From the NCBI RefSeq assembly GCF_001518815.1, contig NZ_CP013987.1, positions 2,812,501-2,876,500 on the forward strand: a stretch of 64,000 bases of DNA. Reading direction: 5' to 3'. The DNA is from Pseudomonas oryzihabitans (lineage in GTDB: Bacteria > Pseudomonadota > Gammaproteobacteria > Pseudomonadales > Pseudomonadaceae). Below, one piece after another: positions 49,263 to 64,000 of this stretch; the stretch's first letter is position 1; every line of letters begins with the position of its first letter. Both the position numbers and the translations under genes were made by a program. The notes under the pieces are model-generated. The model had not been told where the DNA came from and did no database searches. It worked only from the letters and a program-made list of their open reading frames with translations.

Positions 49263-50030
49263 ATGTTCGAGCTGGACAACGTCGGCTTTTCGCTCAACGG
49301 TCGTGCGCTTCTGCATCCGGTGACCCTGCAACTGCCTCGCGGCCGGATCATCGGCTTGATCGGACACAACGGCTCGGGAAAGTCGACGCTACTCAAGCTG
49401 CTGGCGCGCCAGCTCGTACCCTCCAGCGGGTCGCTGACCTTTGATGGCGAAGCCCTGGCGACCTGGAAAACCCAGCGCTATGCGCAGCAGGTGGCCTATC
49501 TGCCGCAACAGTTGCCAGCGGCCGAGGGCATGACCGTCCAGGAACTCGTCGGCATGGGTCGCTATCCCTGGCACGGCGCCCTGGGTCGCTATGATCGCCA
49601 GGATAGGGAACACGTCGAGCGGGCGCTGCGGCTCACGGGCACTGACCGCTTCGCCCAGCAACTGGTCGACACCCTGTCCGGGGGCGAGCGTCAGCGGGTC
49701 TGGCTGGCTATGCTGCTGGCGCAGAACACCCGCTACCTGCTGCTCGACGAACCCACCTCTGCGCTGGACATCGCCCACCAGGTCGAGGTGCTGCAGCAGA
49801 TCCAGACGCTGGGTCGACAGCTGGACCTCGGCATCATCCTGGTGCTACACGAGATCAACATGGCGGCCCGCTATTGCGATCACCTGATCGCCCTGCGGGC
49901 GGGCCGGGTACTGGTGGAAGGCAGCCCCACCGAGCTGATGAACGGCTCGACGCTACAGGCCATCTATGGCATTCCCATGGACGTCCTCCCGCACCCCCAC
50001 GATGGCACACCGCTCGGTTTCCACTGCTAG
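49263..50030 (+). CDS. ferric-siderophore ABC transporter ATPase (FhuC-type)
   Basis: 255 residues: Walker A GHNGSGKST (34-42), Q-loop VAYLPQQLP, GMGRYPWHGALGR (a hallmark of the FhuC/FecE group), signature LSGGERQRV and Walker B YLLLDEPTSALD. It powers import of the siderophore by the FhuB-type permease. It is on the plus strand, convergent with the FhuF-type gene (stop codons overlap by four bases), whereas permease and binding protein are on the minus strand, so it is transcribed separately. GGGAAGG precedes ATG. No Fur box is evident in the 275 bp upstream. Confidence 0.9.
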   Translation: MFELDNVGFSLNGRALLHPVTLQLPRGRIIGLIGHNGSGKSTLLKLLARQLVPSSGSLTFDGEALATWKTQRYAQQVAYLPQQLPAAEGMTVQELVGMGRYPWHGALGRYDRQDREHVERALRLTGTDRFAQQLVDTLSGGERQRVWLAMLLAQNTRYLLLDEPTSALDIAHQVEVLQQIQTLGRQLDLGIILVLHEINMAARYCDHLIALRAGRVLVEGSPTELMNGSTLQAIYGIPMDVLPHPHDGTPLGFHC

Positions 50031-50773
50031 CCCGCGGCCGTGGGCTGCGGGTCCTTCAGGAGCGGGCAGTTGCTGCAGAGTTCTTCTTCCGGCAAGCGGT
50101 AGCGGATGCAGCACACTCGCCGCTGCCGCCACTGCCAGGAAGTTCCCTCGACGCCACCCGCCAGGGGTAGCTCCACATAGATCACCGGCTTGAATAGCGG
50201 ATTGCGCCCGCCCTGAGCGTCGCACGGCTGCTCGAGCCAGTGCTCGAAGGGTGGCAGCGATCCGGGCTGAGGCCGGACCTTGCGCAATTCGCCAGCGAAC
50301 CATTCCAGATAATTGCCCGCATTGCTCCAGAGCACCTTGGGCGACAACCTGATCTGCGCGCAGGCCCCTTCGATGAAGGGACGCAGATTCTCCCGCACCA
50401 GCGGTTCCAGGAGGTCCGAGTGGTCGTCCGCAAAGGCTTCACCGCCATGGGGCAGCACGAAGGCCGCTGGGAGCCGGGCCTCGTTCAACACCAGCCCCAG
50501 TTGGTCGACAGCGATCGGAAGCCGCCAGCGCAGCAGCAGCGAGGCCGCCACCACCGGCGGAATCAACCGGGAAAAGTAGTACTTGGACCAGACCGAGAGA
50601 AGCGCGCGGCGATCCAGCCCCGGATCGCCGCCATAGCCCTCCAGCAGCTCTGGCAGCCCTTCTTCCAGCAACCGGCCAAGCGGCATCACCGCCGCCTCCT
50701 CCGCGTGCAGCCGCAGCACCGAAGCGAACGGCTGGAGGGGGCCGGTGAACAGGGGTGCCAGCGCAGGAATCAT
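50027..50773 (-). CDS. FhuF-type [2Fe-2S] siderophore-iron reductase
   Basis: 248 residues. The C-terminal cysteine motif Cys221-Cys222-x10-Cys233-x2-Cys236 is the [2Fe-2S] signature of FhuF, and the body shows YYFSRLIPPVVAASLL and WSNAGNYLEWF as in that family. FhuF reduces Fe(III) from hydroxamate siderophores in the cytosol to release iron. It is the last gene of the minus-strand cluster, 93 bp after the acyltransferase gene. Its presence supports a hydroxamate-containing siderophore. Confidence 0.88.
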   Translation of the reverse strand: MIPALAPLFTGPLQPFASVLRLHAEEAAVMPLGRLLEEGLPELLEGYGGDPGLDRRALLSVWSKYYFSRLIPPVVAASLLLRWRLPIAVDQLGLVLNEARLPAAFVLPHGGEAFADDHSDLLEPLVRENLRPFIEGACAQIRLSPKVLWSNAGNYLEWFAGELRKVRPQPGSLPPFEHWLEQPCDAQGGRNPLFKPVIYVELPLAGGVEGTSWQWRQRRVCCIRYRLPEEELCSNCPLLKDPQPTAAG

Positions 50774-50866
50774 CAGCCGGGCGATCCGGCAGCAAGAAGA
50801 GCGGAATTCATCGGGTCACCTCAGGTCGTTGTCCCGTACGGGCCCAGTGCAGCGGCGGTGCCTCTC

Positions 50867-51865
50867 TCATGCCAACACGCAACGGTCGAAGAAACGTTCG
50901 CGCTCCAGCAGCATGAGCGCGGCGCGCTTGTGAGGAAAGTCAAAGTCCTTCTGCCGGTAGAACCCCTGGCGCTGCAGGTAGCCGATCATGCGCTCGTTAT
51001 CGGCGCGAGGCTCGGAGACGATACGGCGGGTGCGTGGCTCGTCCAGCAGCAGATAGTGCACCAGCGCTGGCAGCCAGCACGCCACCCGCTGCGGGCCCCG
51101 CAGACGCTCCTCTCCTACCAGCATATGGATGCCGCGATCATAGTCGTCGACCGCGTAGAAAGGGGCGATACGATCCTCGGCCGCCCAGTAGGCTTCGAAA
51201 TAGGCGAAGGGCTCGTCATCCAGGCTACCGACCAGGGTCAATACATGAGGGTCGGCGGCCTGTCGCTGCAGATAGGCACGGTGCTGGTCGAGGCTGCCCT
51301 CCTCCTCCCAGAAGGTCGCCACGCGCGGCTGGTTCTGCCAGCGATGGAACAGCGGCAGATCGGCCTCCAGGGCCAAGGCGCGCAGGCTGATCCAGGCGCC
51401 GAGCCGATGATCGTAGCGACGATAGACGTCCCCCTCCGGCTTGGGCGGACGGCAGGGGTGACGGCGCTGGCCGGTCAATTGCGCCAAGGCGGGATAGCCT
51501 GCGCTGCTCACCGGGCCCAACCAGGGCTGGGGTCGTTGCCAAAACTGGGCGCGCCAGCTGCGTAGGCCGCCCTCGATGCCCTGGGTCAGCAGCCCCTGGC
51601 GCAGCGCCTCAGGTAGCGCCGGCAAGCCTTCCCAGAGCAGCGCCGGCGCCTCGGGCTCACGCAGCAGCAAGGCCAGGGCGAGCGCCGCCAGACGCTCGGT
51701 GGTCAGGTCAGAGCAGCCACCCGAGACCTGCACCCTCAGCCCCTCGGGCGTGGCGTGCTGGCGACAGCGCAACCAGAGTTCATCACCCACTCGCCAGAGG
51801 CTCTCACCATCGAGCTCTTCGTGCACCAGGCGCAGGCCACCCGGCAGTTGGACGACAGACGTCAT
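50867..51865 (-). CDS. siderophore N-acyltransferase (GNAT, IucB/PvdYII-like)
   Basis: 332 residues. The C-terminal half is the GNAT fold of the IucB/AlcB group: LPLFHRWQNQPRVATFWEE, then FAYFEAYWAAEDRIAPFY, DRGIHMLVGEERLRGP and RIVSEPRADNERMIGYLQRQGF (key motifs: FWEE, FEAYW, EPRADN). The N-terminal ~130 residues are a divergent leader region. Such enzymes transfer an acyl group to an N-hydroxylated amine, making a hydroxamate. It overlaps the hydroxylase stop codon (ATGA) and is translationally coupled. No N-hydroxylase (PvdA/IucD-like) gene is in the window. Confidence 0.85.
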   Translation of the reverse strand: MTSVVQLPGGLRLVHEELDGESLWRVGDELWLRCRQHATPEGLRVQVSGGCSDLTTERLAALALALLLREPEAPALLWEGLPALPEALRQGLLTQGIEGGLRSWRAQFWQRPQPWLGPVSSAGYPALAQLTGQRRHPCRPPKPEGDVYRRYDHRLGAWISLRALALEADLPLFHRWQNQPRVATFWEEEGSLDQHRAYLQRQAADPHVLTLVGSLDDEPFAYFEAYWAAEDRIAPFYAVDDYDRGIHMLVGEERLRGPQRVACWLPALVHYLLLDEPRTRRIVSEPRADNERMIGYLQRQGFYRQKDFDFPHKRAALMLLERERFFDRCVLA

Positions 51866-52854
51866 ATTGGGATCTCCCGGGGCAAAGGGTCTTCATGGCG
51901 GCCTTCGGTCATGGCCACCACCACCTTGCGCGGCCCCTTGAACGGGGCGCGGCCGTGGGCGGTGAGCATGTTGTCCAGCAGCAGGATGTCGCCGGTGCTC
52001 CAGGGAAAGAGGATGCGACTCTCGTCGAGCACACCGCGAATCTCGTCCAGCGCGCTGTCCTCCAGCGGCGTGCCATCGCCGTAGAAGACATTGCGTGGCA
52101 GGTCATCCTCACCGACCGTCTCGAGCAGCACCTCACACATCTCCGGCTCCAGTGCCGAGACATGGAACAGATGCGCCTGATTGAACCAGACCCAGTCGCC
52201 GGTACGCGGGTGCTGGGCCACTCCCTGGCAGAGCTGGCGGGTCCGCAGTTCGCCGTCCGCCTTCCATTCGCACGCGATACCTCGAGCGGCGCAGAAACGC
52301 TCCACCGCCACGCGATCATCGGTGTCGAACACCTGCTGCCAGGCCACGTCCAGACCATTGCCATAGTTACGTATATAGCTCAGCCGCTTTTCGGCAAACC
52401 GCCGACGCAAGGCCGGATCGATGCGGGCGAACACCTGACGACTGTCGGCGATGGGCGTCTCTCCCCCCTCCTCCGCGGCCTGGGCGCAATAGAACCAGAT
52501 GCGCATGGGCCAATCGCAGGTGTAGGCCTGCTCGTTATGCAGTGGAATCCACTGACGCGCCGGATATTCGGTGGAGGTGTAGACGCCATCGGCCGTCACC
52601 CGGCTGCGCGGCGTGGAGCCGAACTCGTAGTTCAGCAACGGGTGGCCGAAGCGAGTCGCGAAGGCCTGGAAGCCGGCGACGTCTGGATTGGCGAAACCGT
52701 GCAGGAGAATCCCACCGGCCGTTTCCAGATGCTGCTCGACCAGCGCGTGCAGCGAGGCGAAGACATCCTCCAGCCCGCAGCCGGGTGCGCGCGGAGACAG
52801 GCGCAGTGGCAGACCAGGCTCCAGCTGCAGGAGATCCGCAGGTACCGTCGTCAT
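51862..52854 (-). CDS. SyrP-like Fe(II)/2-oxoglutarate hydroxylase (TauD superfamily)
   Basis: 330 residues. The facial triad is visible: His106-x-Glu108 in IPLHNEQAY and His300 in LLLDNMLTAHGRAPF, plus Arg309 for 2-oxoglutarate. The HNE pattern with Glu, not Asp, and the GRAPFKGPRKVVVAM end resemble SyrP-type enzymes, which beta-hydroxylate peptide-carrier-bound aspartate in NRPS pathways. This predicts a beta-hydroxyaspartate iron ligand in the siderophore. GGAGG precedes ATG; 13 bp downstream of mbtH. Confidence 0.85.
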   Translation of the reverse strand: MTTVPADLLQLEPGLPLRLSPRAPGCGLEDVFASLHALVEQHLETAGGILLHGFANPDVAGFQAFATRFGHPLLNYEFGSTPRSRVTADGVYTSTEYPARQWIPLHNEQAYTCDWPMRIWFYCAQAAEEGGETPIADSRQVFARIDPALRRRFAEKRLSYIRNYGNGLDVAWQQVFDTDDRVAVERFCAARGIACEWKADGELRTRQLCQGVAQHPRTGDWVWFNQAHLFHVSALEPEMCEVLLETVGEDDLPRNVFYGDGTPLEDSALDEIRGVLDESRILFPWSTGDILLLDNMLTAHGRAPFKGPRKVVVAMTEGRHEDPLPREIPI

Positions 52855-52867
52855 TGAGGCCTCCGGT

Positions 52868-53071
52868 CTAGTTGGCCATGGCCTGGCGCAGGCTCAGGGG
52901 ACGCATGTCGGTCCAGACCTGCTCGATATGGGCCAGACAGGTGGCCTTGTCGCCGCTGAACCCGATGGCGGTCCAACCGGCCGGCAGGGCCTTGTAGTCC
53001 GGCCAGATCGAATACTGCTCCTCGGCATTGATGACGACCTGGAACTGAGTGGTGTCGCTGTCGAAACTCAT
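52868..53071 (-). CDS. MbtH-like NRPS helper protein
   Basis: 67 residues with the family pattern: [30 protein letters not shown] (key parts: N-E-QYSIWP, PAGW) and a C-terminal LSLRQ. It binds and activates adenylation domains of the NRPS of this locus. An excellent ribosome-binding site (AGGAGG, 6 bp before ATG) suggests high expression. Confidence 0.95.
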
Positions 53072-53150
53072 GGCAAACCTCCTGCAGAGCGACCGCCTTG
53101 TGCGGCTTTCCTTCTAGAGGACGAACGAGGTGCCCTGCTGTTCAGCACCT

Positions 53151-54077
53151 TCATGGCGCCGCTGGCAGTCCACGCAAGGCGGCGGCAACCTGGCGCGCCA
53201 GCAGCGCCACGCTGGCCGGCCCGCCAAAGGTCCAATAGGGGCTGGGCAGGCTGGCGTATCGACCGCTGCGTGCCAGCGGCATGGCCCGCCAGAGGTCCGA
53301 GCGAAAGAAGGGATGCCCGGTCTGCTCGCCGACGAACAGGGCCGTGAGATCCGGTACCGCGGCGATCTCCTGTACGTCATGGTAGCGGTGCAGCACCCGC
53401 TCGGAAGCCAGGGGCCAGGGGTCGCGTCCTCCCAGGCGGCGGACCAGGGCATTGATCAGTACCCGCCGGTTGAGGGCGATGAATACCCCCTGCTGTGGCA
53501 AGGGAAAGAGCACGGCCAAAGGTCGACCGACGACACCTGCCGCCTGCGCGGCGGCCTCGGCATCGGCCATGGCGCTGGCGGCCTGGAGATTCACCGTGGC
53601 CGCCGCCGGCTTCCGTCCAAGCCGCTCACCCAGGTCGGCGAGCAGCGCGCTGGCGCGAGCCACGGCGTCATCATCCCCCGTCTCCAGCCCATATCGATAG
53701 AGCAGCGTCGGCGCCAGGCTTTGCAACCGGCGGAACAGCCCCAGATGCAGATAGCCGGAGCCCAGGATCAGCTGCGGACGCAGTCGGGCGATGGCTTCCA
53801 GATCCGGCTGCTGAACGCTGCCCAGTGGCTGGCTGGCTTTCAGCAGATCGGTACCGAGCCCAACGTAACGTCGGTAGCCTTCCAGGTTGGCCACCCCGAC
53901 CGGGGCCAGGCCCAGGGAGGTCACCAGTTCGGTCGCCACGTCATCGAGGGTGACGATACGCAGCGGCTGCTCGGGCAATGCCGCTGACTGGCGCGCCACC
54001 AGGTCTGGGTTGGCGGCTGCCATACCGGAAACGCCGAGCAGGATCAGCAGCAGGCCAAACAACAGAGGGACACTCAT
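53151..54077 (-). CDS. siderophore-binding periplasmic protein (FhuD-type)
   Basis: 308 residues from the ATG one base after the permease stop. A signal peptide (LLFGLLLILLGVSGMAAAN) is followed by the two-lobed class III binding fold: RIVTLDDVATELVTSLGLAPVGVANLEGY, LGSVQQPDLEAIARLRPQLILGS (typical) and a C-terminal SPYWTFGGPASVALLARQV. No lipobox Cys. It delivers the ferric siderophore to the FhuB-type permease. The frame stays open 68 codons upstream within the permease gene but is out of the protein's homology there. Confidence 0.88.
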   Translation of the reverse strand: MSVPLLFGLLLILLGVSGMAAANPDLVARQSAALPEQPLRIVTLDDVATELVTSLGLAPVGVANLEGYRRYVGLGTDLLKASQPLGSVQQPDLEAIARLRPQLILGSGYLHLGLFRRLQSLAPTLLYRYGLETGDDDAVARASALLADLGERLGRKPAAATVNLQAASAMADAEAAAQAAGVVGRPLAVLFPLPQQGVFIALNRRVLINALVRRLGGRDPWPLASERVLHRYHDVQEIAAVPDLTALFVGEQTGHPFFRSDLWRAMPLARSGRYASLPSPYWTFGGPASVALLARQVAAALRGLPAAP

Positions 54078-54078
54078 C

Positions 54079-56091
54079 TCAGGACCGCCGATAGCTGCGG
54101 GCCAGCAGCAGTAGAAAGGCCGGGGCCCCGAGCGCCGCCGTGGCGATGCCCAGGGGGATATCCAGCGGTGCCAGGGCCCAGCGCGCCAGGAGATCGGCCA
54201 GGACCAGCAGGCAGGCGCCCAGCAGTGGCGCCACCAGCAGGCGTTGATGGGCGCGATGCAGGCCGAGCAGCCGGACCCCATGGGGCACCAGCAGCCCGAC
54301 GAAGGCGACCGGGCCCACCACCGCCACCGCGGCCGCGATCAACACGCTCGCCAGGGCTACCAGCAGGAGCCGGCGGCTGGCCACGGACAGGCCCAGCCCC
54401 GTCGCCACGCCTTCATCCAGCCCCAGCAGATCCAACCAGCGCGAGGTCAGGCCGGCGGCGCCCAGGCCGAGCACCAGCCAGGGCCACAGCATCCCGACAT
54501 CCTCCCAGGTCCGACCGTAGCTGCTGCCAACCAGCCAGGTCAGAGCCTGGGCCACATTGCTCGCATACTGGGCGATCAGCACACTGGACAGTGCCAGAAC
54601 CAGCCCGCTGATGGCGAAGCCGGTCAGCACCAGGCGCAAGGGCTCCAGCCCGCGCCTCAGGTTGGCGCCTATCACCCAGGCCAGGGCGAGCCCGGCACCC
54701 AGCCACGCCAGCGGAAAGCGCCACTCGGCCGCCAGATCCGGCGCCAGGACGATGGCGCCCAGCACGGCCAGTCCAGCGCTCTGGCTGACTCCGAGGATCT
54801 CCGGTCCGGCCAGCGGATTGCGGGTCACCGCCTGCAGCAGCAGCCCACTGGTGGCCAGCAGGGCACCGGCGCCGGCATCCACCAGCAGCCGCGGCAAACG
54901 CAGATCCAGCAGCACCCAGGCCGTGGGCGCACCGCCGAGCAACGCCTGGAAGAACGCCCAGGCGCCCGTGCCACCACCGAGGCCTGCCAGGCCCAGGCCC
55001 AGCAGCAGCACCAGCAGCCCGCCGGCAAGGGGCATGGCCGCGCCACGGCGCGCAGGCATCTCGCCCCCGCTCAGGCCCACGGCGCTACGGGGCCCGACAC
55101 TGAGGCGGCGCAGTAACAGCAGCAGGCAGAGCGAACCCAACAGGGCCGAGAGCACTCCCAGGGGCAGGCTGATCCAGCCGGCCATCAGGCGTACCAACAG
55201 GTCGGCGGCCAGGGTCAGCACGGCGCCCCAGAGCCCGGATAGGGCGACCAGGTGGGAGGGTCTGTTGACCCCCAGGCCGAGGCGCAGCAGATTGGGCGCG
55301 ATCAGACCGATGAAGCCCAGAGGGCCGGCCAACTGGATGGATAGCGCCGTCAGGACACTGGCCAACAGCAGGCTGATGGCCTTCACCCCGGCAGGTGGCA
55401 GGCCCAGGCCGCGCATCTGGTTATCTCCCAGCCGCGACAGGTCCAGTGGCCGCCGTAGCAGCCAGACGCTCAGCAACGCCAGCGGCAACAAGGACGCGGC
55501 CAGCGCCAGGTGGCCCCACCCCAACTGGCGCAGGGAACCGGTATTCCACAGCGACAGGACCAGGGCGGCGCGATCATTGAGGCTGAGGAACAGCGTGATG
55601 GCAGCAGCGAAGGCCTGGGCGATGGCCACACCGGCCAGTGTCAGGCGCAGGGGCGTGGTGTGCCAGCCGCCGGCCATGGCGAAGGTGAACACCCCTGCCA
55701 GCAAGCCGCAGACGAATACCAGCGGCAGGCCGAGGAAGGCCGGCAGCAGCAGACTCAGGATAAGACCCAGCTGGGCCCCGGCGGTGATGCCGAGCAGATC
55801 GGGGGACGCCAGCGGATTGCGGGTCACTACCTGCATGAGTGCCCCGGCGATCCCCAGACTGGCTCCTACCACCAGACCGGCCACGGCACGCGGCAGTTGC
55901 AGCCACCAGAGCGCCAGCCCTGCCCAGGACGGCGAGCTCGACCAGGGCGCCGCCCAGGCCTCGGCACCTGGCCAACCCGAGGCGAACAGTGCCTGCCAAA
56001 GAAAAAGGCCGAGCAGCAACAGGCTACCTAGCCCAAGGGAAAGAGGCCAGGCGGGCGACCTGGAGAGGAAGCGCCTTGAAAACCGCGACAT
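54079..56091 (-). CDS. fused FecCD-type siderophore permease (FhuB-like)
   Basis: 670 residues, twice the length of a normal FecCD permease: two halves, each with ~10 transmembrane helices and the motifs GASLGIAGALMQVVTRNPLASPDLLGI / GALLATSGLLLQAVTRNPLAGPEILG and LAGPLGFIGLIAPNLLR / VVGPVAFVGLLVPHGVR. Such fusions are diagnostic of FhuB-type hydroxamate transporters. With the FhuC ATPase (separate unit at 49.3 kb) and FhuD protein it completes the inner-membrane importer. The key repeats are RNPLA and the GF(I/V)GL segments. Confidence 0.92.
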   Translation of the reverse strand: MSRFSRRFLSRSPAWPLSLGLGSLLLLGLFLWQALFASGWPGAEAWAAPWSSSPSWAGLALWWLQLPRAVAGLVVGASLGIAGALMQVVTRNPLASPDLLGITAGAQLGLILSLLLPAFLGLPLVFVCGLLAGVFTFAMAGGWHTTPLRLTLAGVAIAQAFAAAITLFLSLNDRAALVLSLWNTGSLRQLGWGHLALAASLLPLALLSVWLLRRPLDLSRLGDNQMRGLGLPPAGVKAISLLLASVLTALSIQLAGPLGFIGLIAPNLLRLGLGVNRPSHLVALSGLWGAVLTLAADLLVRLMAGWISLPLGVLSALLGSLCLLLLLRRLSVGPRSAVGLSGGEMPARRGAAMPLAGGLLVLLLGLGLAGLGGGTGAWAFFQALLGGAPTAWVLLDLRLPRLLVDAGAGALLATSGLLLQAVTRNPLAGPEILGVSQSAGLAVLGAIVLAPDLAAEWRFPLAWLGAGLALAWVIGANLRRGLEPLRLVLTGFAISGLVLALSSVLIAQYASNVAQALTWLVGSSYGRTWEDVGMLWPWLVLGLGAAGLTSRWLDLLGLDEGVATGLGLSVASRRLLLVALASVLIAAAVAVVGPVAFVGLLVPHGVRLLGLHRAHQRLLVAPLLGACLLVLADLLARWALAPLDIPLGIATAALGAPAFLLLLARSYRRS

Positions 56092-56184
56092 GGAGACTTC
56101 GCTTGAGCAACGCGGGCGCAGCCTTGCGGCTCCGCCCGTAACGGGACAGTGGATCCCACGCCGGGTGTGGCGTGGGACTCGACC

Positions 56185-58356
56185 TTACCAGCGATAGGCA
56201 ACAGTGCCGATGACGCTGCGTTCATCGCCCCAGTAGCAACGACCGGCGTCGTTGCAGCCCGAGACATACTCCTTGTCGAACAGGTTCTTGGCGTTGACGT
56301 CCAGCGACCAGTGGCGACCGAAGTCATAGCCGATGCCCGCGTCCACCAGGGTGACGTCGCCGGTGTCCAGCTTGCCGTAGGTAGTGGTGTAGGAGGACAC
56401 GCTGTCGATGTAACGAACCCCGCCCGACAAACGCAGGCCGCTCAGGGCACCGTCCTTGAACCTATAGGTCAGCCAGCTGGAGGCGAAGTTGCGGGGTACC
56501 CCGCTCATCTGGCGATCCTCGAACCGCGAGCCGGGAGCGTCCTTGGTGATGCGCGCGTCGGTGTAGGTGTAGGCCGTCACCCAGTTGAGGTTGTCGGTGA
56601 GGTTGCTGTTGACCTCCAGCTCGAAGCCTTTGGAGCGGCTGGCCCCGACCTGGCGCGGCAGGTTGTTCTCGGTGATGACGTCGTTGTCCTTGCGCAGGTC
56701 GAACGCCGACGCCGTGACGCTGGTGTTCCAGCCCTTGGGTTCGTACTTCAGCCCTACTTCGTATTGCTCGCTGGTGATGGGGCTGAACGCCGGGCCGTTC
56801 ACCGGTGGCTGCTGCACCGGTACGAAGCCGCGCGCATAGCTGACATAGGGCGACAGGCCATTGTCGAACTGGTACATCAGCCCGGTCTGCCAGGTGAACT
56901 TGTGGTTCCAGTCGCTCTCGTCCTGGGCCGCCGCGGCGAAGGTGCGGCGGTTGCGGTACTCGCTCTGGGCCCAGTCCATGCGTCCGCCCAGCAGGAAGAT
57001 CCAGTTGTCGTACTTGGTCTGCAGCTGGCTGTAGGTGCCGTACAGGTTTTGGGTCAGCAGGCTGTCGGCAACGGAGAGCGGCGTCGCCGGGTCACCGGCA
57101 TAGGCCGGGTTGAAGACATCGACGAGAATCGGCGCCCGGGGATCGTTGGCGTTCCAGTCCTGACTGAAGGACGTACGGTCGTATCCCGCGCCCAACAACA
57201 GGGTGTGGTGGAAGTCGCCGGTATCGAACTTGCCTTCGAGCTGGTTATCCAGCGAATAGACCATTGACTTGTTCTGGCGATCGTACGCCGACACCGCGAC
57301 GGTGGTGCCGAACCCGCCCTGATTCAGGGCCCCCGGCCAGATCTCATGCCGGTCGATGCGCGACTGCAGGTAGCGGGAATTCTGGCGGAAGGTCCAGACC
57401 TCGTTGAACTGGTGAGAGAACTCGTAGCCCAGGCTCCAGGTCTCGCGCTCGAACTTGTCCCAGTCGGGGTTGCCGAGCATGGCGTGCCGGCTGATCTTGC
57501 CGTTGGGGTTGTCGAGCAGGGTGCCAGCGGCCGGATAGCCCAGCTCGATGGCCGTGCGATCGCGCTGATAGCTGGACAGCAGCGTCAGGGCGGTGCTGTC
57601 GCTCAGGTTGAAGGTGATCGAAGGCGCAATGTAGAAGCGGTCATCGGGTACATGGTCCACCTGGGTGTCGGACTTGCGCCCCAGCATGACCACCCGCCCA
57701 AGCACACTGCCGTCATCGGTGAGCGGTCCGGAGACGTCCAGTCCGAGCTGGCGCCGATTGTTACTGCCATAGCTTGCCTGTACTTCGCTACGCGAATCAG
57801 CCGTCGGCCGCTTGCTGACCAGGTTGACCAGGCCACCGGGAGCGTTCTCGCCATAGAGGATGGAGCTCGGACCGCGGAACACCTCGACCCGCTCCAGCCC
57901 ATAGGGCTCCGAGGTAGTGTCGTAGCGGTTGCCCTGCACTCTCAGGCCGTCGCGATAAAGCCCATAGCCGTAGTCGGTCGCATTGAAGCCGCGGATGAAG
58001 AAGTAGTCGCCGGCCAGACCGTCGCCCACCGCGAAGGGCGGCGCGAAGATGCCTGGCGTATAGCCCAGGATGTCGGTGAGGGTTTGCGCCTGCTGGTCCT
58101 TGATGCGCTGCTGGGTGACCACCGACACCGAACGCGGGGTCTCCGCGAGCGGCGTGCTGGTCTTGCTGGCGGCCATGCTGTTGTTGGCCTTGTAGCCCAC
58201 GTCCGGGCCGACCGCCGAGGGCTCGGCCTCCGCGGTGATGGTCGTCGGTGCGATGGCGGCAGGCGTTTCTTTCGCCTGGGCCACCGCCTGGGTCTGCCAG
58301 GCAACGGCTGCCGCCAGCAGAGTGATATGGATTCCGTGAGCTACGACGTTGTTCAT
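56185..58356 (-). CDS. TonB-dependent ferric-siderophore receptor (FhuA/FoxA-like)
   Basis: 723 residues from the ATG at MNNVVAHGIHITLLAAAVAW, with AAGGA upstream; a TTG 87 bp earlier is less plausible. Signal peptide, then the plug (residues ~75-200: ETPRSVSVVTQQRIKDQQ as TonB-box/plug start, DYFFIRGFNATDYG, RVEVFRGPSSILYGENAPGGLVNLVSK) and a 22-strand barrel ending in VAYRW. No N-terminal STN signalling domain, so it does not act through an anti-sigma factor. It takes up the ferric siderophore, presumably the one made here. A Fur-box-like palindrome lies about 100 bp upstream. Confidence 0.93.
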   Translation of the reverse strand: MNNVVAHGIHITLLAAAVAWQTQAVAQAKETPAAIAPTTITAEAEPSAVGPDVGYKANNSMAASKTSTPLAETPRSVSVVTQQRIKDQQAQTLTDILGYTPGIFAPPFAVGDGLAGDYFFIRGFNATDYGYGLYRDGLRVQGNRYDTTSEPYGLERVEVFRGPSSILYGENAPGGLVNLVSKRPTADSRSEVQASYGSNNRRQLGLDVSGPLTDDGSVLGRVVMLGRKSDTQVDHVPDDRFYIAPSITFNLSDSTALTLLSSYQRDRTAIELGYPAAGTLLDNPNGKISRHAMLGNPDWDKFERETWSLGYEFSHQFNEVWTFRQNSRYLQSRIDRHEIWPGALNQGGFGTTVAVSAYDRQNKSMVYSLDNQLEGKFDTGDFHHTLLLGAGYDRTSFSQDWNANDPRAPILVDVFNPAYAGDPATPLSVADSLLTQNLYGTYSQLQTKYDNWIFLLGGRMDWAQSEYRNRRTFAAAAQDESDWNHKFTWQTGLMYQFDNGLSPYVSYARGFVPVQQPPVNGPAFSPITSEQYEVGLKYEPKGWNTSVTASAFDLRKDNDVITENNLPRQVGASRSKGFELEVNSNLTDNLNWVTAYTYTDARITKDAPGSRFEDRQMSGVPRNFASSWLTYRFKDGALSGLRLSGGVRYIDSVSSYTTTYGKLDTGDVTLVDAGIGYDFGRHWSLDVNAKNLFDKEYVSGCNDAGRCYWGDERSVIGTVAYRW

Positions 58357-58452
58357 GGCTGCCAGCTGTCCTTGAAATGATCCGTAAAACCGCGTGCCAG
58401 GCACGCTTCCCCCTAAACCGCCCAGTACTCTATTACATGGCAATGAGATATC

Positions 58453-58473
58453 AAATAATAATCGTTACTATTT
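58453..58473 (-). promoter_or_regulatory. Fur-box-like palindrome upstream of TonB receptor gene
   Basis: A 21-bp AT-rich imperfect palindrome, AAATAATAATCG followed by TTACTATTT, with 16 of 21 positions matching its reverse complement. It lies in the only sizeable gap of the cluster, between dat and the receptor gene. Fur would repress the receptor when iron is plentiful. The match to the classical GATAATGATAATCATTATC is only moderate. Confidence 0.5.
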
Positions 58474-58519
58474 ACGCGACAGGGGATTCTCGGGTGCCAT
58501 CCCTGGCCCGATGGCGCGC

Positions 58520-59905
58520 CTACGAGGCCGCCATCACCGTGCGCAGGGCGGTAGCCAGACAGTCGGCGATCTGATCCACCTGCGCTGGCTGCACGATGAG
58601 CGGCGGCAGGAAGCGCAGCACGGCGCCATGGCGGCCGCCCACTTCGATGATCAGGCCACGCCTCAGGCATTCCTGTTGCAGGCGAGCCGCCAGGACACCG
58701 TCGGCCAGGGGATGCCCCTGACGGTCGGTCGGGCCATCGGGGCTTACCACTTCCACTCCCAGCATCAGTCCCTGACCGCGCACGTCGCCCAGCTGGGGAT
58801 AGTCGCGCTGAAGAGCCCTTAGATGGCCAGCGAGCCGTTCCCCCATGGCCGCCGCATGCACTTCCAGCCGCTCTTCACGCACCAGCCGCAAGGTAGCGGT
58901 CCCGGCGGCCATGGCCAGCTGATTACCACGGAAGGTACCGGCATGAGCGCCGGGCGCCCAACGATCCAGTGACTCGTGGTAAACCACGACCGCCAGTGGC
59001 TGGCTGCCACCGATGGCCTTGGACAGGACCAGGACATCAGGCTCGATATCCGCATGCTCGAAGGCGAAACGCCGGCCGCTACGGGCGATGCCGGACTGAA
59101 TCTCGTCCAGCACCAGGGGGACGCCAGCCTCCCGGGTGATCCGCCGGACCTCGCGCAACCAGGTGACGGACGCCGGATTGACCCCGCCCTCCCCCTGGAT
59201 CGGCTCGACGATCAATGCCGCGGGCGGCAGTACCCCACTCTCAGGGTCATTCAGCATGGTTTCCAGGTAGTTCAGCGCCGCCCGCTCGCCCAGTTCGCCG
59301 CCCAGGCCGAAGGGGCACCGATAGGCATGCGGAAAGGGCAGGAACTGCACGCCGCCGTTCATACCGTCCAGGTGGCGCTTGGGACCATGGCTGCCCATCA
59401 GCCCCAGGGCGCCCTGGGTCATGCCATGGTAGGCCCCGTGACAGGCCAGCAGCTGACGGCGGCCGGTGGCGGTACGGACCAGTTTGATGGCGGCCTCCAC
59501 CGCATCGGTACCGGCCGGGCCGCAGAACTGGATTCGGGCGCTGCGAGCGAAGCCCTGGGGCAACAGCGCATACAGCTCGCGGATGAAATCGTCCTTGGCC
59601 TCGGTCATCAGATCGAGGGTGTGCAAGGGGCGCTCACCGTCCAGCAGGCCACGCATGGCGTCCAGCACCACCGGGTGGTTGTGGCCTAGGGCCAGGGTAC
59701 CGGCGCCGGCCAGGCAGTCGATGAACCAGCGCCCTTCGCTGTCCTGCACATGGATGCCTTCGGCCCGACGCAACTCCAGGGGCAGCCGCCGGGGATAGCT
59801 ACGCGCATTGGACTCCAGGGCAGCCTGACGCTCCAGCCGCGGGGTGCCGGTGAAGCGGTAGTCGGCATCGGCGGGAACGCGCTGCAGGCGATGATTAACG
59901 GACAT
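58520..59905 (-). CDS. dat: diaminobutyrate-2-oxoglutarate aminotransferase (PvdH/DABA-AT type)
   Basis: 461 residues of class III aminotransferase. PLP lysine Lys297 in VLVLSKAIGG, Asp267 in LVLDEIQSG, and CGPAGTDAVEAAIKLVRTATGR for phosphate binding. The N-terminal ESNARSYPRRLPLELRRAEG and HTLDLMTEAKDDFI segments are specific for diaminobutyrate aminotransferases. It makes L-2,4-diaminobutyrate from aspartate-4-semialdehyde and glutamate for the NRPS. It overlaps the NRPS gene end by 11 bp, with GAGGA before ATG, so it is cotranscribed with it. Confidence 0.93.
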   Translation of the reverse strand: MSVNHRLQRVPADADYRFTGTPRLERQAALESNARSYPRRLPLELRRAEGIHVQDSEGRWFIDCLAGAGTLALGHNHPVVLDAMRGLLDGERPLHTLDLMTEAKDDFIRELYALLPQGFARSARIQFCGPAGTDAVEAAIKLVRTATGRRQLLACHGAYHGMTQGALGLMGSHGPKRHLDGMNGGVQFLPFPHAYRCPFGLGGELGERAALNYLETMLNDPESGVLPPAALIVEPIQGEGGVNPASVTWLREVRRITREAGVPLVLDEIQSGIARSGRRFAFEHADIEPDVLVLSKAIGGSQPLAVVVYHESLDRWAPGAHAGTFRGNQLAMAAGTATLRLVREERLEVHAAAMGERLAGHLRALQRDYPQLGDVRGQGLMLGVEVVSPDGPTDRQGHPLADGVLAARLQQECLRRGLIIEVGGRHGAVLRFLPPLIVQPAQVDQIADCLATALRTVMAAS

Positions 59906-62900
59906 GATCGTATTCCTCGAAGCCCGATGTGCGGGCGCTGTGGGCGGATGGAGAACTCAGGCGTTCGGCGACTTCGGCCAGCAGGCGCGGATCGCGGACG
60001 ATGCCCAGGTGATCGGCATCGATCCAACGGGACTGCGCCAGCGGACGTCCCAGTCCCCGCTCCAGCAGGGCGTGGCCGTTATGGTTGTTTTCCGGTGAGC
60101 GACTGGCCCACCAGGCATGGACCGGGGCCCGCAGCGGCTTCAGCTGCGGATGCCGACGAGCCAGGCCGTGCAGATGGGCCTCGACGGCCAGCAATTGCGC
60201 CCAGGCGCCACCTTCCTCGTGCGCCCCCTCCCCGGCGACGGGGACGGACCGCCGAGCCAGTCCCGCCCCCGGCACATAGCCGTCGATCAGGCCAACGAAG
60301 GCCACCGTCTTGCCCAGGCGCTCGAGCAGACTCGCCATTTCCAGCACCAGGGCGCCACCCAGGGACCAGCCCAGCAGCCGATAGGCCCCGCTAGGCTGAG
60401 TGTCCAAGAGCACCCGGACATAGTCCCGCGCCAGCTGCGCCAGGTCGGTATCCCGCCAGTTGGGGTCGAGAATCTGGCGATTCTGCAATCCCCAGGCGTC
60501 CCAGGCGCCAGCCAGATGCTGCGCCAGGGGGTAATAGCCCACGACCGTTCCACTGACCGGATGCGGACAGAACAGCGGCGGCCGACCCGTTGCACCTGGC
60601 GTCAGGTGCACCCGGGGATCAGCGCCTTGGGTAGCGCCACCGGGCGCCGGCACCCTGGTGTCTGCCACGAGCGTGGCCAATGCCCTGACGAAGGCCGCGA
60701 GCAGGCGTTCCACCGTGGCCGCCGCATAGCGCTCACCACTGTAGCGGCAGCTCAGCCCCAGCCGGCCGTCATAGACCTGGGCATTGATCTCCAACTCCCG
60801 CACCAGGGGGGTGGCGGGATCGACCAGCGCCCCGGAGGATTCCCGGGCCGACACGAAACGCCCGTTACCCAAGGCGCCGTCGAGTTGCCCCAGGTAGTTG
60901 AAGGCCAGGGGCGGCTCTGGTTGGTCGACCAGTGCCGCGGCCTTGGCGAGATAACGCAACGCGCCATAGTCGAGGCCGCGCGGGCCAGCGGTGGCGAGCT
61001 GGGCACGCAAGCCCTGCAGAGTGGCGCGCGGATCTTCGCCGCAGGCCAGGCATAGCGGATACAGGCTGGTGAACCAGCCCAGGGTGCGGCCCGGATCGAG
61101 ATCGGCGAACAGGGCCTCTCGGCCGTGCCCCTCCAGGGCGATGACATGGCCGTCCCGACCGCTCCAGTCGCGTACGGCTTCCGCCAGCGCTGCCAGCAGC
61201 ACCTCGTCGAGTCGAGCGCCCAGCGCGGTCGGCGCCTCACGCAGCAGCCAACGGGTCCGCTCGGGATCCAGCTGCACCTCCGCCGTATGGACCTTGCCCT
61301 GGGTGGCTTCGCCCGCGGGGTAGTCCACTGGCCAATCCGATCGGGGCACCAGAGCCTGCCAGTGCGCAAGTCCTGCCTGGGTCTGCGGCTGTATCGCCCA
61401 GTGTGCCAGGCGTTCGGCCCAGGCCTGGTAGGTCGGGGGCCGGGGCTCGTCGAGCAGCGACGCTTCGCGACCCAAGGCCGAATAGATGCGTCCCAGGTCG
61501 TCGAGCAGCAGCCGCCAGGAGACGCCGTCCATGATCAGGTGGTGAGCGCAGATGAAGAGACGCTGCCCCCCTTCCGGATAGTTCGCCAGGACCAGGCGCA
61601 GCAAGCCGCCGCGCTCCAACTCGAAACTCCGCTGGGTACGGGCACAGAGCGCCTCGAGTGCGACCGCATCGGCAACCTCAACCTCCTGCAGCAGGTGTTC
61701 GACGTGGATGTCGTCACGATATCCGGCCTGCCAGCCTGCAGCGGTCTGGCGGAAGGCCAGGCGCAGCACGTCATGCCGTTGCAGCAGCGTGGCGACGGTG
61801 GCGGTGAAGCGCGCCGACTCCAGGGGCTCGCGCACCTCCAACAGCAGCGCCTGGTTCCAGTGCGCCGGGTTGGGCAAAGGCTGCGCGAAAAAATGAGCCT
61901 GGATGGGCGTCAGGCGCTGGGTGCCCTGAGCCGGCTCCCAGCGGGGTTGCGCCGCGAGCGGTTCGAGGCAGAGGGCCAGTTCGGCGAGGCGCGGACGGCG
62001 GAAGACGTCCTTGGGCCCCAGTTGCCAGCCCTTGCGCTGCAGACGACTGATCAGAGCCAGGGACTGAATGGAGTCACCGCCCAACTCGAAGAAGCCGGAC
62101 AGGCGCCCGATACGCTCGACACCCAACAGCTCGCGCCAGAGTTCGGCCAGCAGTTCCTCTCGCGTCCCCTGAGGGGCTTCTTCGAGAAGGTGGCTGACCC
62201 GCTGCGGTGCAGGCAGCGCCTGGCGATCGAGTTTGCCGTTGGGCAACTGCGGCAGGCGCTCCAGCAACACCAGGTGCTGGGGCACCAAGTGGCCGGGCAG
62301 TTGCTGACGTAGCAGCTCCAGCAACGCCATCTCCTGCAAGGCGCCGCCGCCGACATAGCCCACCAGCCGGTCGCCGGCCGGGGTCTCGCGGACCATGACC
62401 AGCGCCTCGCGCACGCCTGGGCACGCCTTCAGCGCTGCCTCGATCTCGCCAGTCTCGATACGGAAGCCGCGCAGCTTGATCTGCTGGTCGGCGCGGCCGA
62501 GGTATTCCAGCAATCCCTCGGCATTGAGCCGCACCCGATCACCCGTGCGATAGAGCCGTTCGCCAGCGCGGAAGGGATTGGGCACGAAGCGTTGCGCCGT
62601 CTCGGCGGGACGCTCCAGGTAGCCACGAGCCAGGGCACCGCCCAGGTACAGCTCGCCTTCCACTCCTACCGGCAGCAGGTTGAGGTCCTGGTCCAGCACA
62701 TAGCCCTGGCGCTCGCCTACCAGGTTGCCGATGGGGGCGTAGGCACTGGTGAAATCCGCGGTGGCTGCAGGGGCGCGCCACAGGGTCGGGGTGATGACGG
62801 TTTCGGTCGGCCCGTAGCCGTTGATGACCCAGTCGGGCTGGAGATGCTCCACCACCTCGCGCAGCAGGCCGCGGTCATAGGCCTCGCCTGCGAAGCAGTA

Positions 62901-64000
62901 GGTCTTCACCCCCGGGCCGCGGCCCTGCACCCGCCCCCAGTCGGCCAGCTGGCGCAGATAGCTCGGTGGGAAGGCGACGACGGTAATGCCCTGCTCTTCC
63001 AGCGCCTGCCAGGTCTCCTGCACGCTCCACAGCGCCTGGTCGCGGATCACGACACGGGCGCCCTGGCTCAGCGGCGTCAGCCAGCGCTCCTGGGCACCGT
63101 CGAAGCTGATGGACAGGAAGTGCAGCTCACGGTCCTGCGCGGTGAGTTCGTAGCGTTGCGCGATGCCTTGGCAGTGAAGCGCCAAGGGCCCATGGGCCAC
63201 GGCCACGCCCTTGGGCCGACCGGTCGACCCGGAGGTATAGATAACATAGGCCAGTTGCTCGGGATGCAGGACCACGTCTGGCGCGCTGTCGGGCAAATCC
63301 GTGAGATCCAGGCGGTCCAGAACAACTCGCTCGACGTCAGCGACCTGGGGCAACCGTTCGAGCAGTTCGTGCTGGGTCAGCACCAGCCTGGCGCCGCTGT
63401 CTTCCAGCATCAGCGCCAGGCGCTCGGCGGGATAGTCCGGATCCAGCGGCAGATAGGCACCACCGGCCTTGAGTACCGCCAACAGAGCGACGAACAGTTC
63501 GATGCCCCGCTCGCAGGCCACGCCCACGCGGGTTTCAGCGGAAACGCCCTGCCCGTGCAGCCAATGCGCCAGGCGATTGGAGCGTGCTTCCAGGGTGGCG
63601 AAGTCCAGCCGCAGCTGGCCGTGCACCAGGGCGATGGCCCGGGGCTGGCGGCGGGCCTGTTCGGCGATCAAAGCGGGCAGCAGCGGCCTATCCGCGCTGG
63701 CCTGCGCCGGCGAATTCCAGCGTTGCCAGGTGGCCAGGCCCTCGGCATCGAGCAACGGCAGATCACCCAGGGGTGTGTCCGGCTGGCGAACCAGACCGTC
63801 GAGCAGGGTCAGCCAGGTGCGCAGGAAACGCTGGGCGGTCGCCCGTTCGAAGAGGTCGCTGGCGAAGTCCAGGTAGCCGGAAATACGGCCGTCGGCCTCG
63901 TCGAAGGTGCCCAGCGACAGGTCGAAATGCACCTGGTCGCCTGCACCGTCAAGGGCTTCGGCCTTGAGGCCGGGCAGCCGAGCCAGCGCTTGTTCGCCAC
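59895..64000 (-). CDS. non-ribosomal peptide synthetase, C-terminal module A-T-E-TE (5' end outside window)
   Basis: The frame is open to the right edge; ~1367 residues are visible. Counting from the internal GTG at 63932: end of a condensation domain (1-60), adenylation domain (75-590; YTSGSTGRPKG at 232, YRTGDRV at 461, NGKLDR at 565), carrier Ser621 in LGGDSIQS, epimerisation domain (670-1095; HHLIMDG at 797) and thioesterase (1115-1330; Ser1190 in GWSLGG, His1308). So the last residue is converted to the D form and the chain is released here. My hand alignment to PheA gives binding-pocket residues D-G-E-A-C-A-G-I-T-K, suggesting a basic substrate such as Lys; uncertain. Confidence 0.93.
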   Translation of the reverse strand, partial: GEQALARLPGLKAEALDGAGDQVHFDLSLGTFDEADGRISGYLDFASDLFERATAQRFLRTWLTLLDGLVRQPDTPLGDLPLLDAEGLATWQRWNSPAQASADRPLLPALIAEQARRQPRAIALVHGQLRLDFATLEARSNRLAHWLHGQGVSAETRVGVACERGIELFVALLAVLKAGGAYLPLDPDYPAERLALMLEDSGARLVLTQHELLERLPQVADVERVVLDRLDLTDLPDSAPDVVLHPEQLAYVIYTSGSTGRPKGVAVAHGPLALHCQGIAQRYELTAQDRELHFLSISFDGAQERWLTPLSQGARVVIRDQALWSVQETWQALEEQGITVVAFPPSYLRQLADWGRVQGRGPGVKTYCFAGEAYDRGLLREVVEHLQPDWVINGYGPTETVITPTLWRAPAATADFTSAYAPIGNLVGERQGYVLDQDLNLLPVGVEGELYLGGALARGYLERPAETAQRFVPNPFRAGERLYRTGDRVRLNAEGLLEYLGRADQQIKLRGFRIETGEIEAALKACPGVREALVMVRETPAGDRLVGYVGGGALQEMALLELLRQQLPGHLVPQHLVLLERLPQLPNGKLDRQALPAPQRVSHLLEEAPQGTREELLAELWRELLGVERIGRLSGFFELGGDSIQSLALISRLQRKGWQLGPKDVFRRPRLAELALCLEPLAAQPRWEPAQGTQRLTPIQAHFFAQPLPNPAHWNQALLLEVREPLESARFTATVATLLQRHDVLRLAFRQTAAGWQAGYRDDIHVEHLLQEVEVADAVALEALCARTQRSFELERGGLLRLVLANYPEGGQRLFICAHHLIMDGVSWRLLLDDLGRIYSALGREASLLDEPRPPTYQAWAERLAHWAIQPQTQAGLAHWQALVPRSDWPVDYPAGEATQGKVHTAEVQLDPERTRWLLREAPTALGARLDEVLLAALAEAVRDWSGRDGHVIALEGHGREALFADLDPGRTLGWFTSLYPLCLACGEDPRATLQGLRAQLATAGPRGLDYGALRYLAKAAALVDQPEPPLAFNYLGQLDGALGNGRFVSARESSGALVDPATPLVRELEINAQVYDGRLGLSCRYSGERYAAATVERLLAAFVRALATLVADTRVPAPGGATQGADPRVHLTPGATGRPPLFCPHPVSGTVVGYYPLAQHLAGAWDAWGLQNRQILDPNWRDTDLAQLARDYVRVLLDTQPSGAYRLLGWSLGGALVLEMASLLERLGKTVAFVGLIDGYVPGAGLARRSVPVAGEGAHEEGGAWAQLLAVEAHLHGLARRHPQLKPLRAPVHAWWASRSPENNHNGHALLERGLGRPLAQSRWIDADHLGIVRDPRLLAEVAERLSSPSAHSARTSGFEEYDHVR

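Follow-up and report, generated by a model that had tools for sequence, protein, structure and literature searches.

The window, a stretch of 64,000 nucleotides from Pseudomonas oryzihabitans (positions 2812501-2876500 of a 4,834,356-base single-contig genome, G000), carries at positions 49263-64000 one end of what is very likely a complete cluster for the biosynthesis, export, uptake and iron release of a marinobactin-type siderophore. The whole cluster covers approximately 40 kb (genome 2861763-2901783), and position 64000 is only the edge of the window, with the gene of the second non-ribosomal peptide synthetase (NRPS2) continuing to 75893 and the sigma factor gene ending at 89283, in window numbering. 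Genes were called through a listing of the open reading frames (ORFs) over 53 kb around the locus, adjoining DNA included, and through Pfam and NCBIfam profile matches, which identified every gene that the initial annotation had named in 49263-64000, while the adjoining DNA contributes the missing parts of both synthetases as well as genes for an ornithine N-hydroxylase, an exporter and an ECF sigma factor. Read along the minus strand, with falling coordinates, the order is sigma factor, exporter, hydroxylase, NRPS1, NRPS2, 2,4-diaminobutyrate (Dab) transaminase, TonB receptor, FhuB, FhuD, MbtH, TauD, GNAT and FhuF, and FhuC, on the plus strand, is convergent with FhuF.

As in the marinobactin systems, the assembly line starts with a FAAL and has six modules, which are divided between two NRPSs, with a TE at the end. 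The domains of NRPS1 are FAAL-T-C-A-T-E-C-A-T and those of NRPS2 are C-A-T-E-C-A-T-C-A-T-C-A-T-E-TE, the FAAL being called from its position and a YGLAE motif, not from a FAAL-specific model. The specificity codes of the adenylation (A) domains were taken from an alignment of the A4-A5 segment, with nine positions read and the tenth (K) assumed, at code positions that we take to follow the standard scheme. For modules 1-6 these codes are DLTKVGHVGK, DVWELTADDK, DVWHVSLIDK, DGEACAGITK, DVWHVSLIDK and DGEACAGITK, which read as Asp-Dab-Ser-OHOrn-Ser-OHOrn (OHOrn, N5-hydroxyornithine), i.e., the marinobactin specificity order; the residue names are those that we presume for such codes, and the comparators support them. 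The identical six-fold order occurs in Terasakiispira papahanaumokuakeensis, P. chengduensis, P. graminis, P. schmalbachii and a congeneric genome (G006), with no more than two positions changed per code, and the prediction of the head group is strong. The initial annotation had left the identity of the compound to the NRPS genes on the right, and the extension in that direction, with its domain and A-domain reading, revealed further modules, six in all. What had been proposed from the window alone, that is, a single NRPS lipopeptide with Dab, beta-hydroxy-Asp and N-acyl-N-hydroxyornithine, other than a pyoverdine and imported by an ABC system plus FhuF, agrees with the gene content.

In the proposed pathway, a fatty acid (tail length conjectural) would be loaded by the FAAL domain of NRPS1, with module 1 adding an Asp that would be epimerised and beta-hydroxylated by the TauD enzyme, module 2 a Dab supplied by the transaminase, module 3 a Ser, which would be epimerised, module 4 an OHOrn, module 5 a Ser, and module 6 an OHOrn, again epimerised. 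The hydroxamates would be produced by the ornithine N5-hydroxylase and the GNAT, most likely in acetylated form, and the chain would be released by the TE. The lipopeptide would be secreted by the ABC exporter, and its ferric form may re-enter via the TonB receptor and FhuBCD, with the iron being reduced by FhuF. A TauD-type Asp beta-hydroxylase is recognised here by family and cluster context only. Among the best 80 of 567 confirmed relatives, obtained through a TauD-alignment scan of genome contigs, whose ends may hide genes, TauD homologues that are 62-71% identical adjoin NRPSs in Marinobacter, Terasakiispira, P. chengduensis, P. schmalbachii and P. graminis.

In the predicted marinobactin cluster of P. 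chengduensis 402 (L078), a species that we take to belong to Ectopseudomonas, the nine accessory genes found at the window end are all present, among them DAT, FhuB, FhuC, FhuD, GNAT and FhuF; the order of the six modules is the same, and an exporter and a hydroxylase adjoin NRPS1. Protein identity is 48-77% for the nine accessory genes and 58-60% for the NRPSs, the sigma gene being beyond the stretch compared, and the TonB receptor has 66% identity to its counterpart in the P. chengduensis cluster and 67% to that in the P. schmalbachii cluster. Together with the predicted Ectopseudomonas marinobactin clusters described in PMC13037486, the P. chengduensis cluster provides in essence the match to a known siderophore cluster that the initial annotation had named as the result that would speak against it. 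The cluster is complete in gene content and of an already described kind, a real and largely ordinary finding.

Beyond Pseudomonas, the GNAT, TauD, MbtH and receptor genes of the window cluster are all present in four Marinobacter genomes and in Terasakiispira (5/5; the Terasakiispira sequence compared is that of strain PH27A), the condensation-domain layout of Marinobacter BGYM27 is the same, and codes were read for Terasakiispira and M. lutaoensis. Unlike the window cluster, none of the five has a Dab transaminase in the stretches compared, which for Marinobacter is in line with PMC13037486, and FhuBCD, FhuF, the exporter and the sigma gene were not seen in the stretches compared of Terasakiispira. 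Ions consistent with marinobactins A-E, to which m/z 932.5, 958.5, 960.5, 986.5 and 988.5 are assigned, are reported for T. papahanaumokuakeensis DSM 29361, with tandem mass spectra for A-D (PMC12971057). The NRPS pair of M. lutaoensis (L157/L158) has four modules only, and an iterative line was considered, although it is likelier that two near-identical module pairs were collapsed in the assembly, probably but not provenly, given that BGYM27 has the full condensation-domain layout; that of the other two Marinobacter genomes is spread over several contigs.

P. graminis DSM 11363 (P. lutea group), presumably the same type strain as LMG 21661T, has the backbone order, DAT, MbtH, TauD, FhuF, sigma, exporter and hydroxylase in common with the window cluster, but differs in the presence of a transformylase instead of the GNAT, and no FhuB or FhuD was seen in the stretches compared, where FhuC is represented by a weak ABC match only. 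The predicted P. graminis peptide is Asp-Dab-Ser-OHOrn-Ser-OHOrn, and formomarinobactin was found by mass spectrometry in LMG 21661T (PMC13037486). P. schmalbachii Milli4 (L067) likewise has an NRPS pair of six modules with this residue order, and its transformylase shares 79% identity with the P. graminis protein; the product predicted from these genes is formomarinobactin.

In both P. graminis and P. schmalbachii, a Formyl_trans_N protein follows TauD. Formomarinobactin, i.e., the same peptide with formylated hydroxyornithines, could be argued for P. oryzihabitans from the equal backbone order and near-identical codes of P. graminis, and from the receptor of a P. oryzihabitans strain, which PMC13037486 groups beside the formomarinobactin receptors, but it is highly improbable, given that a GNAT stands where the transformylase would be and that the P. 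graminis transformylase, used as a query, had no match at E 0.001 in the genome of the window, yet found its 79% identity match in P. schmalbachii, the positive control. The same query was also empty at this threshold in P. chengduensis and Terasakiispira. As the GNAT that marks marinobactin clusters is present and no N5-hydroxyornithine transformylase of the PvdF-like type that marks formomarinobactin clusters was found by this search, an acetylated marinobactin is predicted. This provides a clean case in which the exchange of a single tailoring gene, GNAT or transformylase, predicts an acetyl or a formyl product. A marinobactin head group with a non-standard ornithine acyl group or an unusual fatty tail would overlap with the acetylated marinobactin, differing in the acyl parts only. 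Formomarinobactins have shorter tails than marinobactins (PMC13037486), the GNAT shares only 51% identity with its P. chengduensis counterpart and 59-63% with four Marinobacter GNATs over 70-80% of its length, and the related SidF takes a larger acyl-CoA, all of which would favour such a variant, although it is unlikely, as the nearest relatives of the GNAT outside the genus, among the best 80, are from Marinobacter and Terasakiispira, the genera reported to make acetylated marinobactins.

The corrugatin- or ornicorrugatin-like lipopeptide put forward in the initial annotation would suit the FAAL start, the Dab, the beta-hydroxy-Asp chemistry and the Pseudomonas host, but its probability is close to nil, given that corrugatins are octapeptides with other residues and that just six modules, ordered Asp-Dab-Ser-OHOrn-Ser-OHOrn, stand against an eight-residue line, as judged without a corrugatin cluster in the comparison. 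In its number and order of modules and in its A-domain codes, the complete cluster agrees with the marinobactin family, and, given this code order and the putative P. oryzihabitans marinobactin cluster already named in PMC13037486, the product is not corrugatin-like and is probably not a new compound class either. A pyoverdine, which would call for additional NRPSs, one of them with a chromophore module, was rejected because, of the ten condensation-domain places in the genome, nine are in the marinobactin-type cluster and one is EntF-like (PvdP and PvdO formed no part of this search). The bokeelamides of Ectopseudomonas khazarica (PMC11574851) share the FAAL-type lipid start, the TauD beta-hydroxy-Asp and the OHOrn with the window cluster, but have five modules, OHOrn-Asp-Ser-Ser-OHOrn, and no Dab, and a bokeelamide was likewise rejected, as there are six modules here, with Asp first.

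The cluster may be under Fur control. In the stretch with the sigma and hydroxylase genes (L013), a 19-base Fur consensus had no match, and a 7-1-7 pattern returned two Fur-box-like sites, each with two mismatches to TGATAATNATTATCA, one 17 bases upstream of the hydroxylase ORF and the other 19 bases upstream of the sigma ORF. In 200 shuffles of this stretch there were 0.04 sites on average, and never two, and sites with two mismatches also precede the same two genes in G006. NRPS and receptor genes of P. graminis have been tested and called iron regulated (PMC13037486).

A number of observations weigh against a marinobactin-type product or parts of the proposed pathway. The chemistry of the product in P. 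oryzihabitans is here a prediction from genes, and the acyl group used by the GNAT is unproven, its best solved match being SidF, a user of anhydromevalonyl-CoA. In NCBIfam, the hydroxylase matches only a model for histamine N-monooxygenase, at 198 bits versus a cut-off of 700. Position 8 of the OHOrn code is I versus V in five comparators, and position 2 of the Dab code is V versus I in the same five, the two variants occurring together elsewhere only in G006. The receptor and importer end (L011) has no Fur-like site at up to three mismatches to the 7-1-7 pattern, and none before the receptor; at four mismatches, for which there is no chance estimate, two more sites appear, of which one falls within the sigma gene and the other 13 bases ahead of the receptor ORF. 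Moreover, the Asp module of the bokeelamides has an E domain, yet its residue is L-erythro beta-hydroxy-Asp (PMC11574851), so the genes do not settle the stereochemistry.

Among the best 80 relatives, a GNAT match was found at 17 loci, and a FhuB match of at least 57% at six, namely L068 (an uncultured Pseudomonas metagenome-assembled genome, the same record as G003), the four Marinobacter genomes and P. chengduensis, with P. khazarica (L122) presenting a FhuB match of 35%. Within the genus, the GNAT is found in five of the 13 genomes and the co-linear set in three (G000, G006 and G003), the last of these being traced to a contig end inside NRPS2, and a siderophore first known from marine bacteria is now extended to these genomes. 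The accessory genes of G006 and G003 have 82-97% protein identity and the same order (sigma, 78.5%, measured in G006 only), and this recurrence of the same genes in the same order places the gene set beyond chance. The TauD homologues of G005 and G010 (63-64%) adjoin different NRPS genes. According to PMC13037486, Pseudomonas has just one putative marinobactin cluster, that of a P. oryzihabitans strain, whose genome may be G000, and G006 and G003 look like further cases.

The cluster is flanked by an Endonuclease I gene on the left and an AraC-type gene on the right (window 48988 to 89540). In G009 and G002, both flanks are co-linear with G000 at 84-90% DNA identity, but are spaced by 2.6 kb and 9.1 kb, respectively, versus 40.6 kb in G000, and the space is filled by other ORFs, with no blastn match to the cluster sequence between the flanks. 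The flank genes are near each other only in G000, G009 and G002 among the 13 genomes; the AraC-type gene is matched in four of these, that of G012, at 58%, being on another contig. In G006 and G003, the FhuC side of the cluster borders other genes, which are alike in both. Given the absence of the cluster between the same flanks in G009 and G002, and the other FhuC-side neighbours in G006 and G003, these alignments indicate that the cluster site is variable.

Within NRPS2, the A domains of modules 3 and 5 (A3/A5) share 97.3% DNA identity and those of modules 4 and 6 (A4/A6) 98.0%, while each is 86-88% identical to its G006 orthologue, and the corresponding values within G006 are 93.1% and 90.6%. 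In all six NRPS2 genes compared, the repeated Ser and OHOrn A domains have a within-cluster protein identity of 94-99%, versus 63-73% between the window and four distant clusters (A3 and A4 only); M. lutaoensis, with one copy of each A domain, stands outside this comparison. The high identity along NRPS2 covers the A domain and drops outside it, although the along-gene comparison was ungapped, such that the low outside values may in part reflect a lost register, and it fails for most of the Terasakiispira A3/A5 pair. This pattern is as expected from repeated gene conversion of the A domains, which may have been homogenised lineage by lineage. Homogenising gene conversion is mentioned in general terms in PMC9205934, and no priority is claimed for A-domain homogenisation. 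Its presence in six NRPS2 genes points to the likely sites of recombination within a natural assembly line, and this may be useful for NRPS engineering. A bolder combination, in which a new marinobactin series with another ornithine acyl group or tail would be made by a non-marine Pseudomonas lineage from a variable chromosomal site, its Ser/OHOrn repeats kept identical by lineage-wise gene conversion confined to the A domains, is given a low but not trifling probability.

Table. Genes of the marinobactin-type cluster, with window or genome coordinates and supporting matches
Feature	Position	Strand	Evidence
FhuC-type ATPase, ferric-hydroxamate importer	window 49263..50030	+	PF00005 1.1e-34; best NCBIfam model FhuC 392 bits, below cut-off 433
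FhuF-type ferric-siderophore reductase	window 50027..50773	-	PF06276 and PF11575 over cut-off
GNAT N-acyltransferase (Acetyltransf_8, IucB/SidF-type), predicted N5-hydroxyornithine acetyltransferase	window 50867..51865	-	PF13523 6.2e-58; SidF chain 7qf6 9.3e-54
TauD-family Fe(II)/2-oxoglutarate dioxygenase, predicted Asp beta-hydroxylase	window 51862..52854	-	PF02668 1.7e-42
MbtH-like protein, 67 aa	window 52868..53071	-	PF03621 5.8e-23
FhuD-type periplasmic binding protein	window 53151..54281 (longest ORF)	-	PF01497 3.8e-11
FhuB-type double permease	window 54079..56091	-	PF01032, two stretches, 1.8e-134
TonB-dependent ferric-siderophore receptor	window 56185..58443	-	PF00593 and PF07715
2,4-diaminobutyrate:2-oxoglutarate transaminase (DAT)	window 58520..59905	-	NF005393 747 bits, cut-off 671
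NRPS2 C-terminal part: module 6 (C-A-T-E) from within its C domain, and TE	window 59895..64000	-	whole gene 59895-75893, 5332 aa
NRPS2	genome 2872395-2888393	-	5332 aa
NRPS1	genome 2888393-2897935	-	3180 aa
Ornithine N5-hydroxylase	genome 2898009-2899331	-	PDB L-ornithine 5-monooxygenase 3s5w at 1.3e-121
ABC exporter	genome 2899442-2901115	-	TIGR01194 cyclic peptide export and NF007813, both over cut-off
ECF-type sigma factor	genome 2901112-2901783	-	

The true start of FhuD is probably near 54000, given that the alignments with its G006 and G003 homologues extend over no more than 284 and 289 aa, respectively. A gene of the phosphopantetheinyl-transferase family is present elsewhere in the genome, and a fatty-acid acylase was considered beside the cluster, but the only penicillin-amidase-family gene found in the genome is 0.2 Mb off, and no link is claimed.

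Finally, a second siderophore locus lies outside the window, at genome 3130000-3149999 (L014), with an EntF-like NRPS, identified via its condensation domain only, an enterochelin esterase, an enterobactin ABC substrate-binding protein and permease, and a TonB siderophore receptor. A turnerbactin cluster is mentioned for P. oryzihabitans RIT370 (PMC4400433).

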